This document shows, one piece after another, positions 13,720-59,518 of a DNA stretch of 64,000 bases (its first letter is position 1; the number at the start of each line of letters is the position of its first letter). Position numbers and translations under genes: made by a program. The DNA comes from Thermobaculum terrenum ATCC BAA-798 (GTDB taxonomy: Bacteria; Chloroflexota; Chloroflexia; Thermobaculales; Thermobaculaceae), in assembly GCF_000025005.1 (NCBI RefSeq), contig NC_013526.1:434001-498000 (forward strand), written 5' to 3'. Below the pieces are notes generated by a model. That model did not search any database. It was not told the DNA's origin and saw nothing but the letters and a program-made list of their open reading frames with translations.

Positions 13720-14577
13720 CTACGCTTTTAGTCCTCCTAGCATTATTCCTTCCACTAGGTACCTTTGTCCTAAAATGTATATTATTAGTACTGGTAAGAG
13801 AGATATAATTACACCAGCAAGTACTACCGATATGCTTCCCGTGCCCATGTAACCTTGGAGGTTAACTAAACCCAAGGGTAGGGTAAATTTATCTATGCTC
13901 TTTAGGAATACTAGAGGCCTAAGAAATTCATTCCAGTAACCATTGAAAGACAATATTGCTAATACTGTTAGTCCTGGTCTTACCATAGGTAGGTATATAG
14001 ACCAAAAGATCCTCCAGTGACTGGCGCCGTCTATTAGTGCGGCCTCTTCAAATTCATTAGGTATCCTCATAAAGTACTGCCTCATTAGAAATGTACCAAA
14101 GGCCGTAGCTACTGCTGGAAGAATAAGCGCACTTCGAGTGTCAGCCAAGCCTATTTTGCTGATTTCTACGAATACCGGAATTATAGTAGCTTGCTGAGGA
14201 ATCATCATGGTTGCTAGTATAAGCCAGAAGAGCAAGTTCTTTGCAGGGAAATTCAGCCTTGCAAAAGCATAACCGGCTAGTGCCGATGTTGCTACTTGTG
14301 CAACTACAATGCTTAAGGTTATGAACATACTGTTTACTACGTAGTGTCCCAATGGCACGGTAGAAAATACAGCTTCATAATTGCTGAAGTCTGGGGGGAT
14401 GGGTATCCACCTTGGAGGGAGAGTGAAAGATTCGGATGGTATTCTGAGGGAGGTTGCTAGTGCATATGCTATTGGACTAATCACAATTATAGATGCAATA
14501 AGTAGAATAAGTATTAGCATTGTATAGCTTAAGTTCCATCTCAACTTTTGTAATTTGTAAACAGTACGTACAAACAT
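13720..14577 (-). CDS. ABC sugar permease, MalG type
   Basis: This permease of 285 residues has six hydrophobic spans and an EAA loop (EEAALIDGASHWRIFWSIYLPMVRPGL). The C-terminal YLVEGIMLGGLKA end is typical of MalG-like subunits. ATG 14577 is chosen because AGGTGG lies just upstream; a GTG at 14586 is also in frame. The gene is last in a minus-strand operon after a MalF-type permease and a binding protein. Codons are strongly AT-biased compared with the genes outside the island. Confidence 0.87.
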   Translation of the reverse strand: MFVRTVYKLQKLRWNLSYTMLILILLIASIIVISPIAYALATSLRIPSESFTLPPRWIPIPPDFSNYEAVFSTVPLGHYVVNSMFITLSIVVAQVATSALAGYAFARLNFPAKNLLFWLILATMMIPQQATIIPVFVEISKIGLADTRSALILPAVATAFGTFLMRQYFMRIPNEFEEAALIDGASHWRIFWSIYLPMVRPGLTVLAILSFNGYWNEFLRPLVFLKSIDKFTLPLGLVNLQGYMGTGSISVVLAGVIISLLPVLIIYILGQRYLVEGIMLGGLKA

Positions 14578-14586
14578 CGTTACCAC

Positions 14587-15549
14587 CTACTGATAGAAAA
14601 CCCAATATCTACTTAGAATGAACTGAATGGCAGTCAGTGAGAGTATGACCACAAACAATATGAAAGCTATAGCTGATCCATAGCCTATTTGTAGATTCTG
14701 GAATGCTGACTCGTAGATAATCATCACTACAGTTCTGGTAGCATCCCCTGGTCCGCCATTGGTTAGAACAAACGGTATCTCAAATATCTGGAGAGCTCCT
14801 ATCACTCCGACTACTGCGGCAAACAGTAGTGTTGGGCTAAGCATTGGAATTTGAATATGAACTAGTTTTTTCCACCCGTGAGCTCCATCCACATCGGCAG
14901 CTTCAAGTACTTCTGTAGGAATACTAGAAATTCCACCTGTGAGGATAATGAACATGAAGCCTAGCTGCTGCCAAACATAGGTTATAATGACTGCTACCAT
15001 AGCCCAGTGCGGAGAGTTGAGCCAAGGTATTCTCGGAAGACCTATGTGGGTTAAGTAGTAATTAATAACACCGAAATCCTGATCAAACATATATGCTAGA
15101 ACTATCGATATTGAAGCTGCTGAGGTTAATATAGGAAGGAAAAATATAGTTCTAAAGAAGTATCTTAATACTCGTTGTTTAATGCTCTGTACTCCTAGTG
15201 CTAAAAGTAGCGCGACTACTATTTGCAACAGCACAGATAGTATTACTATTTGTGCTGTAGTTAGGAAGCTTCTTAGTACCCTTGTGTCATGAGTCAACTT
15301 TATATAGTTGTCCAAGCCAACAAATCTAGCCTTTTCTATAACGTTCCACTCAAAGAAGCTTAAGCCGAAAGATGCAATGATGGGTAAAATGGTAAATACT
15401 AGCAGACTAACTACAGTTGGGGCTATAAATAGGTAACCCATCAGGGCTCGGCGCATAGCCGAGCCCCTTACATTGTCTCGGAATAAATCTGCTATTGACT
15501 CTTGGAAAGCCCTCGTGTTTGATTTATGTAGAAACTCTGTTTTCTCCAT
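14587..15549 (-). CDS. ABC sugar permease, MalF type
   Basis: The 320-residue protein has a 35-residue cytoplasmic N-terminus, six hydrophobic spans and an EAA loop (LEAADVDGAHGWKKLVHIQIPMLSP). The region FVLTNGGPGDATRTVVMIIYESAFQN is typical of sugar permeases of the MalF/UgpA class. ATG 15549 follows GGAGC by 8 bp. Spacing to the downstream permease is a few bases. It forms the channel of a sucrose or fructan importer if the neighbouring GH32 enzyme reflects the substrate. Confidence 0.87.
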   Translation of the reverse strand: MEKTEFLHKSNTRAFQESIADLFRDNVRGSAMRRALMGYLFIAPTVVSLLVFTILPIIASFGLSFFEWNVIEKARFVGLDNYIKLTHDTRVLRSFLTTAQIVILSVLLQIVVALLLALGVQSIKQRVLRYFFRTIFFLPILTSAASISIVLAYMFDQDFGVINYYLTHIGLPRIPWLNSPHWAMVAVIITYVWQQLGFMFIILTGGISSIPTEVLEAADVDGAHGWKKLVHIQIPMLSPTLLFAAVVGVIGALQIFEIPFVLTNGGPGDATRTVVMIIYESAFQNLQIGYGSAIAFILFVVILSLTAIQFILSRYWVFYQ

Positions 15550-15563
15550 AACATGAGCTCCTT

Positions 15564-17006
15564 TTATTTTCCACCCTCTTGTTCATAAGCTTGCTCCATC
15601 TCTTTCTGCATGTTATCCAATGCCTGTTGCGGAGTTTGAGAGAAGGACATAGCTAAACTTGTGTATTTAGTGAAAATTGTGTTCATGCGTTCATACCAGG
15701 TTGGTGCTGGTATTGGAGCAGTATCTGGGAATTTAGTTAGAGTGTCGTAGAAGACGCTCCAGTGTTTGGGGCCAGTATTTGCATATTGCTTAGCTGTAGC
15801 CAATGATCTGCGTACCGGTGTAGTGTCATTGTTGCTGAGTATATACTGCATTACAGGCTTACTAACCCAGTACTTAATGTACTCCCATGCTAAGTCCTTA
15901 TTCTTGGATTTTTCCATCATAACTAGTCCTGCAGTACCAAATAGATGTCTCTGCGTCTGCCACTTAGGGAAAAACTGGACATCAAATTCGTCTGGCTTCA
16001 TACCAGCGTTATGCAAGCCACCGGCCCAGAAGCCCCCTGCTGGTGTCATTCCTAGCTTGTCACTAGTAAAGAAGCCTTGTAGAAGACCACCACCCCCTGC
16101 ACTTATACTAGGGGTGATGTGTTCCTTAGCCAGCTGCACCATGAAATCTAATGCTTCAACGTTTTCTGGTGTGTTGGCGATAGGTTCTCCCCAACGCCAT
16201 CCGCCACTGCGCCCCTTAGCTGCAGGATTATCAGGATAGAAAGTATCCCATAACCATTGCCCGCCTTGCCATTTATCTTCTTTTAAGAGATTGCTGCGAT
16301 TGTTATAGATCCAGGGAGTCCAACTTCCCCACAATCGAATTACCCAACCATAACCGTAGGGAGCCCCATCCCCACCCAGGGCGGCAATCTTCTTCGCTAT
16401 GTCGTAGAAATCATCCTTGGTCCAATTTCCCCGAGGATACTCAATTCCTGCTTGTGAGAAAAGATTCATATTCAGGAACATGTTAGCAGCGTTGAAGTCA
16501 AATGGAAGTGCATACAAGTGTCCCTGATACATCATTGCCTCGACTAGAGAGGGATGCACGTCTGCAAAGTACTCACGTATCGCTTCCTTGTCTTGCTTGA
16601 CGAATTCGTCTAATGGGTACGCTAATCCTTTGCCGGCAAATAACTGTATGCCTTCAGTAGCTACAGTCATGAGATCTGGAACGCTTCCTGATGCTATTTG
16701 GGTGAGAATCTTAGTAAAATAATCGTTCCAGTCTTTCCCTTGTATAGGAAGAAAGTTGATCTTAACTCCTGGATGGGCTTTCTCGAAGTCCTGTGCTATA
16801 ACCTTTTGGCTATTGGCCACTTGTGTACCGACAAAAGCTATTTGGAGGGTGCCCTGCATTCTAACATGGGTAGCTTGACTGCTCACGGTGGGACTAGAAG
16901 CAGGTTTGGATGTGGACGACATTCCACATCCTGCCATGTATATCCCAGCTGAAGTCAATATAGCATTCCTCATAAAATCTCTACGGCTTATTCTCCTAGT
17001 ATTCAT
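15564..17006 (-). CDS. ABC sugar-binding lipoprotein with Tat-like signal
   Basis: The 480-residue protein begins RRISRRDFMRNAILTSAGIYMAGC, a Tat-like RR motif with lipobox Cys. The mature part has the family-1 solute-binding pattern: GSVPDLMTVATEGIQLFAGKG, YALPFDFNAANMFLNMNLFSQAGI and a C-terminal TPQQALDNMQKEMEQ helix. It starts at ATG 17004-17006 with AGGAGG upstream. A strong promoter and a LacI-type palindrome lie directly ahead. Together with the two permeases it makes an importer without an ATPase; the substrate is probably sucrose or fructo-oligosaccharide, as judged from the GH32 gene next to the regulator. Confidence 0.88.
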   Translation of the reverse strand: MNTRRISRRDFMRNAILTSAGIYMAGCGMSSTSKPASSPTVSSQATHVRMQGTLQIAFVGTQVANSQKVIAQDFEKAHPGVKINFLPIQGKDWNDYFTKILTQIASGSVPDLMTVATEGIQLFAGKGLAYPLDEFVKQDKEAIREYFADVHPSLVEAMMYQGHLYALPFDFNAANMFLNMNLFSQAGIEYPRGNWTKDDFYDIAKKIAALGGDGAPYGYGWVIRLWGSWTPWIYNNRSNLLKEDKWQGGQWLWDTFYPDNPAAKGRSGGWRWGEPIANTPENVEALDFMVQLAKEHITPSISAGGGGLLQGFFTSDKLGMTPAGGFWAGGLHNAGMKPDEFDVQFFPKWQTQRHLFGTAGLVMMEKSKNKDLAWEYIKYWVSKPVMQYILSNNDTTPVRRSLATAKQYANTGPKHWSVFYDTLTKFPDTAPIPAPTWYERMNTIFTKYTSLAMSFSQTPQQALDNMQKEMEQAYEQEGGK

Positions 17007-17021
17007 TCAAAGCGCCTCCTG

Positions 17022-17067
17022 AGTAATCGATTACTGCAAGTATAAATCCTTCCGTAGTCTTCGTCAA
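17022..17067 (-). promoter_or_regulatory. Promoter and LacI-type operator of the importer operon
   Basis: On the minus strand TTGACG (17062-17067) and TATACT (17039-17044) are spaced by exactly 17 bp. The perfect 14-bp palindrome AGTAATCGATTACT (17022-17035), with the central CG typical of LacI operators, covers the expected transcription start. A bound repressor would block initiation. Confidence 0.8.
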
Positions 17068-17111
17068 TAGGTACTACAAAGCCAAGATAAATCAAACTTT
17101 ATGGCGCAATC

Positions 17112-17156
17112 TTGATAAACGAATGCTTTTTAGAGATAATTCAGAAAACGATTGCT
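17112..17156 (+). promoter_or_regulatory. Promoter and second LacI-type operator of the regulator gene
   Basis: TTGATA (17112-17117) and GATAAT (17135-17140) are spaced by 17 bp. At 17143-17156 the sequence AGAAAACGATTGCT matches the palindrome before the importer operon at 11 of 14 positions and overlaps the expected transcription start. Autoregulation of the LacI gene is likely. Confidence 0.65.
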
Positions 17157-17168
17157 ACAGGATGGCCT

Positions 17169-18212
17169 ATGGGAAATGTGAAAATCTCGGACGTCGCTAA
17201 AAAGGCTGGCGTGTCTACGGCTACTGTATCAAGGGTATTATCCGGGAAAACTACTGTTGACCCGATATTGCGGGATAGGGTTTTGAAGGCGGTGGAAGAG
17301 ACTGGATACAAACCTGATAGAGTTGCTCGTAGCTTACGTAAGAGACAATCTAGCATAATTGGGCTTATAATATCCGATATTCAAAATCCTTTCTTTATAT
17401 CTCTGGTCAGGGCAGTTGAAGATGTGGCTCAGAAGCATGGTTATATAGTGATGCTGGGGAATGCTGACGAAGATGAACGGAAAGAGAGAGAATACATACA
17501 AGTTATGATTTCGGAAAGGGTTGCTGGTGTTATAGTATCTCCTAGTAGGGAATACAACGATCCTTGTGAGGATCTTGTTAGGGCGAAGATTCCCTTGGTG
17601 CTGGTTGACAGAAGGGTTCCTGGCTTAGATGTAGATACTATAGTCGTCAATAACACTTGGGCAGCACAACAGCTAGTAATGCACCTTATAGAACATGGAC
17701 ATAGCAGAATAGGAGCTGTTTTAGGAACCTCTATAGTCGCTACCGGAAGGGAACGCCGTGAGGGCTATGTGCAGGCTCTCCTACAGTATGGCTTTCCTAT
17801 TATCCCGAACCTAATTAAAGTGGGCCCTCCACCGCCTAGTGGTGCTAATAGAGAGGATACAGGCTATAGACTTACTATGGAACTACTAAACGCCAAAGAG
17901 AGACCTACAGCTCTTTTTACAGGAACCAACTTACTGACTATAGGTGCACTCAGAGCTATTCAAGAAAAGGGACTGTCTATCCCTGAAGATATAGCATTAG
18001 TTGGCTTTGATGATATAGACTGGATGCCCGTCTATAATCCCAGCATTACAGTAGCAGCTCAGCCTACATATCATATAGGAAGAATAGCCGCTGAAATGCT
18101 AATAGCGCGTATTCAAGGTGATGAGTCACCAGCGCAAGAGATAGTACTTCAGCCAGAAATCAAAATACGGCGCTCATGTGGACAGCATGTAAGTATAAAC
18201 TGTGATAAATAG
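17169..18212 (+). CDS. LacI-family transcriptional regulator
   Basis: The protein has a LacI N-terminal HTH (VKISDVAKKAGVSTATVSRVLSGKTTV) and hinge (KPDRVARSLRKRQSSIIGLI), then a periplasmic-binding-like effector domain ending in a C-terminal region with ALVGFDDIDWMPVYNPSITVAAQP. ATG 17169 is chosen, since the promoter -35 box overlaps the upstream in-frame TTG at 17112 and AGGA precedes the ATG. The gene is divergent from the importer operon and 47 bp upstream of the GH32 gene. It likely represses both sides until a sugar ligand binds. Confidence 0.92.
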   Translation: MGNVKISDVAKKAGVSTATVSRVLSGKTTVDPILRDRVLKAVEETGYKPDRVARSLRKRQSSIIGLIISDIQNPFFISLVRAVEDVAQKHGYIVMLGNADEDERKEREYIQVMISERVAGVIVSPSREYNDPCEDLVRAKIPLVLVDRRVPGLDVDTIVVNNTWAAQQLVMHLIEHGHSRIGAVLGTSIVATGRERREGYVQALLQYGFPIIPNLIKVGPPPPSGANREDTGYRLTMELLNAKERPTALFTGTNLLTIGALRAIQEKGLSIPEDIALVGFDDIDWMPVYNPSITVAAQPTYHIGRIAAEMLIARIQGDESPAQEIVLQPEIKIRRSCGQHVSINCDK

Positions 18213-57576: not shown

Positions 57577-58871
57577 GCTCGAGGCGCACTCTGTCCCCCA
57601 CGCAGACGGCTACGAGGACTCGCCGGTACCTGGCGCGCCGGGTCGCCGGCCCCGCGGCGGTCATCGGCGTGCTGGGCCCGGGGCTCATAGCGGCCAGCGC
57701 GGGCAACGACGCAGGCGGGATAGCCACCTACGCCTCGGTGGGGGCGTCCTACGGCTACTCCCTGCTGTGGGTGCTGGCGGTGATCACCGTGTCGCTGGCG
57801 ATCATCCAGGAGATGGCCGCCAGGATGGGGGTGGTCACGGGCAAGGGATTCGCGGACCTCGTGAGGGAGAACTTGGGGCTGCGCACCACCGCCTTCGTCA
57901 TGCTCGTGCTGGTGGCCGCCAACGGTGGCCTCGTGGTGTCGGAGTTCGCCGGCATAGGGGCGGCGGCCGAGCTGCTGGGAATCTCTCGCTATTACGCCGT
58001 GCCCGTGATGGCCCTGCTGGTGTGGTGGCTGATCACCAGGGGGTCCTACCGCAGGGTGGAGCGCGTCTTCCTGCTCATGACCCTGATATTCTTCGCCTAC
58101 CCCGTGGCGGCTTTCCTGGCGGGACCCGACTGGGGGGAGGTGGGCAGGAGCCTGGTCACGCCCACCTTCAGCCTGGAAGGCCGCTACCTGCTGCTGATGA
58201 TCGCGCTCATAGGCACGACCATCACGCCCTACATGCAGATCTACGCGCAGTCGACCATGGCCGAGCGCGGGGCCACCTTCGGCCTGTCGCTGGTCAAGCT
58301 GGACGCCTACTCGGGGGCGCTGTTCTCCAACGTCGTCGCCGGCTTCATCATCGTCGCCACCGGCGCGACCCTGCACAGGATGGGCGTGGAGGTGCAGACC
58401 GCCCAGGACGCCGCCCGAGCGCTGGAGCCCGTGGCGGGGCGGTTGGCGAGCGCCGTGTTCGCCGTCGGCCTGCTGGGGGCCTCGGTGCTGGCCGCGGCCG
58501 TGCTGCCCCTGAGCACCGCGTACACGGTGTGCGAGGCTTTCGGCTTCGAGAGGGGCGTGAACCAGTCCTTTCGCGATGCCCCGGTGTTCCACGGCCTGTT
58601 CACGGCGCTGCTGGCGGTCGGAGTGCTCGTGGCGCTGGTGCCGGGGCTCAACGTCATCCAGCTGTTGGTGTGGACGCAGGTGATCAACGGCCTGCTCCTG
58701 CCGGTGGTGCTGATCTCCATCCTGCGCCTGGTGAACAACCCCGAGGTCATGGGCGAGCACACAAACGGCCTGGTGTACAACGTGCTCGCGTGGGCGACCA
58801 CCGGGCTGGTGGTGCTGCTGTCCTGCGCGTACCTCGTGATCACGCTGCTGGGTATCTTCGGCGTGTCCTAG
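57573..58871 (+). CDS. NRAMP-family transporter, divergent (NRMT-like)
   Basis: The 432-residue protein has 11 or so spans of the NRAMP/LeuT-like fold. In place of the TM1 metal motif DPGN it has NDAGG (residues 45-49), and in TM6 the usual MPH is TPY (218-220). The loss of the Met that favours Mn2+ and Fe2+ is a feature of NRAMP-related Mg2+ transporters. Its translational coupling to an MgtE_N-CBS protein supports magnesium transport. This is inference, and Mn2+ transport is not excluded. The next 90 bp hold no gene. Confidence 0.83.
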   Translation: MSSRRTLSPTQTATRTRRYLARRVAGPAAVIGVLGPGLIAASAGNDAGGIATYASVGASYGYSLLWVLAVITVSLAIIQEMAARMGVVTGKGFADLVRENLGLRTTAFVMLVLVAANGGLVVSEFAGIGAAAELLGISRYYAVPVMALLVWWLITRGSYRRVERVFLLMTLIFFAYPVAAFLAGPDWGEVGRSLVTPTFSLEGRYLLLMIALIGTTITPYMQIYAQSTMAERGATFGLSLVKLDAYSGALFSNVVAGFIIVATGATLHRMGVEVQTAQDAARALEPVAGRLASAVFAVGLLGASVLAAAVLPLSTAYTVCEAFGFERGVNQSFRDAPVFHGLFTALLAVGVLVALVPGLNVIQLLVWTQVINGLLLPVVLISILRLVNNPEVMGEHTNGLVYNVLAWATTGLVVLLSCAYLVITLLGIFGVS

Positions 58872-58961: not shown

Positions 58962-59434
58962 CTACGGACAGCGCATTATCTTTTGGAAGGCACGCTCGGT
59001 GTTGGGATTGGCGTTGTCATGGAAGGTCGCGTGTACCTGCAGATCAGTCCCATCCGAGCCCATACCGTGGATGGTTATGGTAAATGTGAAGGCTCCTGTG
59101 TCGTCTGGCCAGGACAAGCCACCCTCTAGAACGTGCACTTGCCGCTGTAAGACGGCCCGGTACCATCGGCCGGCACGGCGGTGAAGGTGCCTGTCTCGGT
59201 CTCGGTCACGGTAATGCCTCCGTTCGGGAGTATCGTCATATGCTCGACACCGTTGTAGGTCACGGTGATGTCCTAAAGCTTCTCCGAGCAGCACAGGGTA
59301 TCTGTGAGCGACTCGGTCTGGTCCTGGTAGGTCTGCGTGGTGTTGATTGCGCCGTTATCCGCGGCCAGCGCAGATGAGGCCATCGCCAGTACTAAGGCAA
59401 GTATCCATATCAGGCTAAGCGTGCCTCTTAACAT
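58962..59434 (-). pseudogene. Secreted protein gene with in-frame stop and frameshift
   Basis: ATG 59434 opens a frame with a clean signal peptide (GTLSLIWILALVLAMASSALAADN) and stops at a TAG (59273-59275). The same frame continues with DITVTYNGVEHMTILPNGGITVTETETGTFTAVPADG to another TAG at 59126-59128. There the reading shifts to a second frame, which continues with SWPDDTGAFTFTITIHGMGSDGTDLQVHATFHDN to a stop at 58962. Put together they make one secreted beta-rich protein of about 155 residues. One nonsense change plus one frameshift argue for a decayed gene. Confidence 0.75.
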
Positions 59435-59518
59435 GCTGCCACTCCTAGCTAGCACGGCTTCCGACCTTGCACAAGCCCGTGGCATCGACCTCCCTACCAT
59501 AGACCTGAGCTGTGACAA

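Follow-up and report, generated by a model that had tools for sequence, protein, structure and literature searches.

Thermobaculum terrenum carries, on the minus strand of its chromosome 2, a gene for a small exported protein that is broken into three reading-frame pieces (58962–59434; all coordinates refer to the window, i.e. the whole analysed stretch of 64,000 nt). Such a locus raises the question of whether a gene has been lost, whether it is still read in an unusual way, or whether the breaks are errors in the sequence. A first-pass annotation made from the DNA letters had described a decaying secreted-protein gene and considered its inactivation likely to be recent. Here we compared the locus with intact relatives, examined the breaks and weighed the alternatives. 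The locus is very probably an ordinary unitary, that is single-copy, pseudogene of an uncharacterised family of small exported, beta-rich proteins.

The locus and its parts

The broken gene occupies part of a 968-base spacer flanked by two long frames. The plus-strand frame upstream in coordinates, which ends at 58871, we take to be an Nramp-type transporter; the minus-strand frame on the other flank (60370–59840) is presumably of the DUF421 type. A stretch of 69 residues (L030, G000:C2:974094-974300) is 75% identical to residues 326–394 of the Nramp-like protein of the window and sits in an open frame of 130 aa, perhaps as a fragment of a second copy. The window also contains a region of deviating composition, 14001–18000, with a G+C content of 41–45% vs 57–70% in the remaining 2-kb steps.

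Read on the minus strand, frame 1 starts with the ATG at 59434 and runs through 53 codons to a TAG at 59275–59273, then through another 48 codons to a second TAG at 59128–59126. From this junction the frame one base off continues the same protein until the TAG at 58964–58962. The gene has retained its start codon, a Shine-Dalgarno-like AGGAG read in the sequence 7 bases before the ATG (59442–59446, minus strand), its leader and its natural stop. Piece A (59276–59434) comprises the first 53 codons including the leader, which is hydrophobic and, judged by eye, resembles a signal peptide. It is followed by the in-frame TAG (59273–59275), located in a column that is Tyr in the closest intact relative. 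Piece B (59129–59272) carries the family motif TYNGVxH. At the frameshift junction (59126–59128) the shift creates a TAG in the frame of A and B, and piece C (58965–59125), in the displaced frame, contains the GSDG motif and a C-terminal Cys before the TAG at the natural protein end (58962–58964). A search for a promoter-like site found none, which says little.

Similarity to intact exported proteins

All three pieces are collinear along one intact exported protein of 164 aa, encoded on the minus strand in a genome from a different genus within the same taxonomic family (G449, L018:1486-1980). Pieces A and B together share 57 of 112 residues with it and piece C 22 of 43; at ~50% identity it is the closest relative found. 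The order of the motifs TYNGVEH, PSYSG, GAFTFT and GSDG and of the C-terminal Cys is identical, whereas the relative has a single open frame, extra residues in one loop and other neighbours. With the leader left out, the segments scored 158 (A), 131 (B) and 84 (C) against this protein; 300 dinucleotide-preserving shuffles of 58962–59434 reached a best score of 50, with a middle score of 30. The first-pass annotation was thus correct in assigning the three frame segments to one protein. In a search with a profile of ten relatives, A plus B matched with an E-value of 2.3e-21, and piece C alone gave a weak match (0.078). At the level of single loci, A plus B matched 12 of 12 homologues and piece C 10 of 12 at E ≤ 1, mostly weakly.

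The codons bear witness to the past of the gene. Over 112 codons aligned with the intact relative, changes at codon positions 1, 2 and 3 numbered 33, 24 and 58, and pN was 0.24 vs a pS of 0.66. The values were 0.19 and 0.54 for A plus B, and 0.32 and 0.875 for piece C, the latter pS being saturated. This pattern marks a gene that was under selection during most of its history.

Relatives have homologues whose frame is open and whose start resembles a signal peptide. A search with the single sequence hit 13 of the 400 Chloroflexota genomes, its own among them; the 12 others had no stop inside the match. With the profile of ten relatives the number rose to 22 of 400, again including T. terrenum. 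The first-pass annotation had proposed looking for an intact homologue in the genome or in relatives. Of the 21 other genomes, 20 had no stop inside the match, and the genome of T. terrenum itself (3,101,581 bases in two contigs, of which contig 2 has 1,074,634 bases) yielded no second copy. Within the class, the profile matched 7 of 158 genomes, its own included; among seven genomes of the same taxonomic family, T. terrenum and G449 matched at E ≤ 0.001.

Nature of the breaks and alternative explanations

Codon 54 is an in-frame TAG, and a frameshift follows directly after codon 102; these are the positions given by the first-pass annotation (59273 and near 59128). Two shared motifs on either side of the junction lie 32 nt apart here, compared with spacings of 33 nt and 36 nt in a pair of intact relatives; a single net shift therefore breaks the frame. 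By eye, the second TAG aligns with a Trp column that is invariant in 10 of 10 rows of profile A1. This TAG does not have to count as a third lesion: it arises at the point of the frameshift itself, and two disabling events therefore suffice.

It could be argued that the organism has an intact gene and that the breaks stem from sequencing or assembly, as no more than two point events disrupt the frame and the remainder is well kept. The first break is, however, a substitution-type change, and neither break has a homopolymer run of at least 4 nearby. The genome of strain YNP1 is described as finished: it was built from Sanger and 454 reads, Illumina data served to polish it, and the error rate is given as <1 in 100,000 (PMC3035366); at that stated rate two independent errors within one gene of 473 bases are improbable. 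We consider an error origin unlikely.

Less likely still is that the locus works on in an altered way, either through a short exported peptide made from the first piece or through low levels of readthrough and frameshifting that yield some full-length protein.

Expression through readthrough of the TAG combined with programmed frameshifting would explain why all pieces have kept a coding signature. A distant homologue from the draft genome G035 (L065) also has an in-frame TAG in an otherwise open frame. That TAG, however, is at a different position, and the other 20 matched genomes have no stop inside their matches. In the window, TAG terminates 23 of 40 long GC-patterned frames, in a crude count in which some frames may not be genes. 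Two matches to pyrrolysyl-tRNA synthetase reached 26.9 and 22.9 bits vs a cut-off of 178.15, the coding strand of 58962–59434 contains no slippery heptamer of the X-XXY-YYZ type, and recoding would require two separate events. Taken together, we regard recoding as highly improbable. The TAG in L065 (G035:C110:1520-1990) would itself mark either a separate loss event or a fault in the assembly. Another candidate for in-frame TAG use, in L036, a match to a neighbouring gene, was rejected since the TAG, by eye, precedes the likely start of that gene.

Chance frames would fit a 968-base region between two long frames, but are refuted by the ordered homology of the pieces to intact proteins and by the shuffles, none of the 300 exceeding 50 against the real scores given above, so that this explanation has next to no probability.

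The locus is thus best explained as a unitary pseudogene: it combines near-full-length homology to an intact protein with lesions that end and shift the frame. The description as a decaying secreted-protein gene agrees with the open-frame homologues with signal-peptide-like starts, the excess of pS over pN and the sufficiency of two lesions. The intact ancestor would have been a small exported protein of ~160 residues with a signal peptide, antiparallel beta strands and two conserved cysteines. Translation would now stop at codon 54 and yield only the leader and ~29 residues, a product without a foldable domain, and the function would therefore be lost.

How long ago this occurred can be bracketed broadly. 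If 2.9% of single substitutions yield a stop and the ratio of indels to substitutions is assumed to lie between 0.05 and 0.2, the two lesions in 435 bases translate into roughly 2–6% neutral change, with 95% limits of 0.2–21%. A relative-rate count found 6 conserved columns lost here only vs 2 lost in the relative only (p 0.29), which is without a clear excess of losses and does not show relaxed selection. The third-position GC of the pieces is 0.72 (A), 0.81 (B) and 0.64 (C); the intact relative has 0.84, and seven neighbouring frames range from 0.78 to 0.94. The mostly lower values of the pieces may fit some decay and equally a gene of atypical native composition. The number of lesions gives rough support to the claim of recent inactivation. 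The pseudogene is probably fairly recent, and no date can be assigned.

The protein family and its ancestral role

Scanned against Pfam and NCBIfam, both the pieces and ten relatives gave weak matches only (best E 0.013), and therefore no family name is given. Two sets of PDB sequence matches, to designed beta-trefoils (best E 0.0064) and to others (best E 0.092), were judged to reflect composition. A search with PF18678 carries no information, as its control matched nowhere.

The relatives (L039-L043, L046-L069) are small exported Chloroflexota proteins. They carry TYNGVxH-like motifs along with GSDG, and two of their cysteines are invariant in A1. Uncharacterised exported proteins such as L039-L043, from metagenome-assembled genomes titled Chloroflexi or Ktedonobacterales, are collinear with the broken gene over the whole length, and both invariant cysteines are present in the latter too. 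These proteins differ from it in their open frames and in the sequence P-C-T/S-G around the first Cys, which is common in A1 and lost in the broken gene. No shared neighbour genes were seen by eye beside three homologue loci (L004, L018/L022, L041), nor was a partner gene for the exported protein seen. When the L018 protein was used to search viral contigs, 9 stretches fitted a pattern and 0 were confirmed; plasmids gave no match.

Of five sequences modelled, one gave a confident structure and the other four scored 40–43. The confident model, that of an intact relative, is a predicted seven-strand meander (mean pLDDT 74.4, pTM 0.63). Foldseek with this model returned a best E of 0.38. A second structural aligner listed mixed barrels and porins, the best Z of 9.0 belonging to the porin 4pr7; because the list is mixed, no function was read from the fold. 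The meander also aligns with 2ooj (titled DUF3224), 2q03 (titled uncharacterised), DUF3237 and AbyU, with Z values of 7.3 (2ooj), 8.0 and ~6, whereas the DUF3224/AOC-like small beta-barrels have no significant sequence match to the exported family. As far as the predicted model goes, the likeness to small antiparallel beta-barrels is one of a common shape and does not show kinship. Judged only from the leader and the predicted strand meander, the ancestral protein would most likely have been secreted and free-standing, a beta-barrel or beta-sheet protein binding or acting outside the cell.

For the YNP1 genome of T. terrenum 41 pseudogenes have been reported (PMC3035366). The present analysis documents a probably young pseudogene of this species. 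It also brings to notice a family of small exported Chloroflexota proteins in which none of the ten scanned members matched a Pfam or NCBIfam model. The patchy spread of this family, in 22 of the 400 genomes with T. terrenum counted, together with the loss described here, suggests a dispensable, niche-dependent protein.
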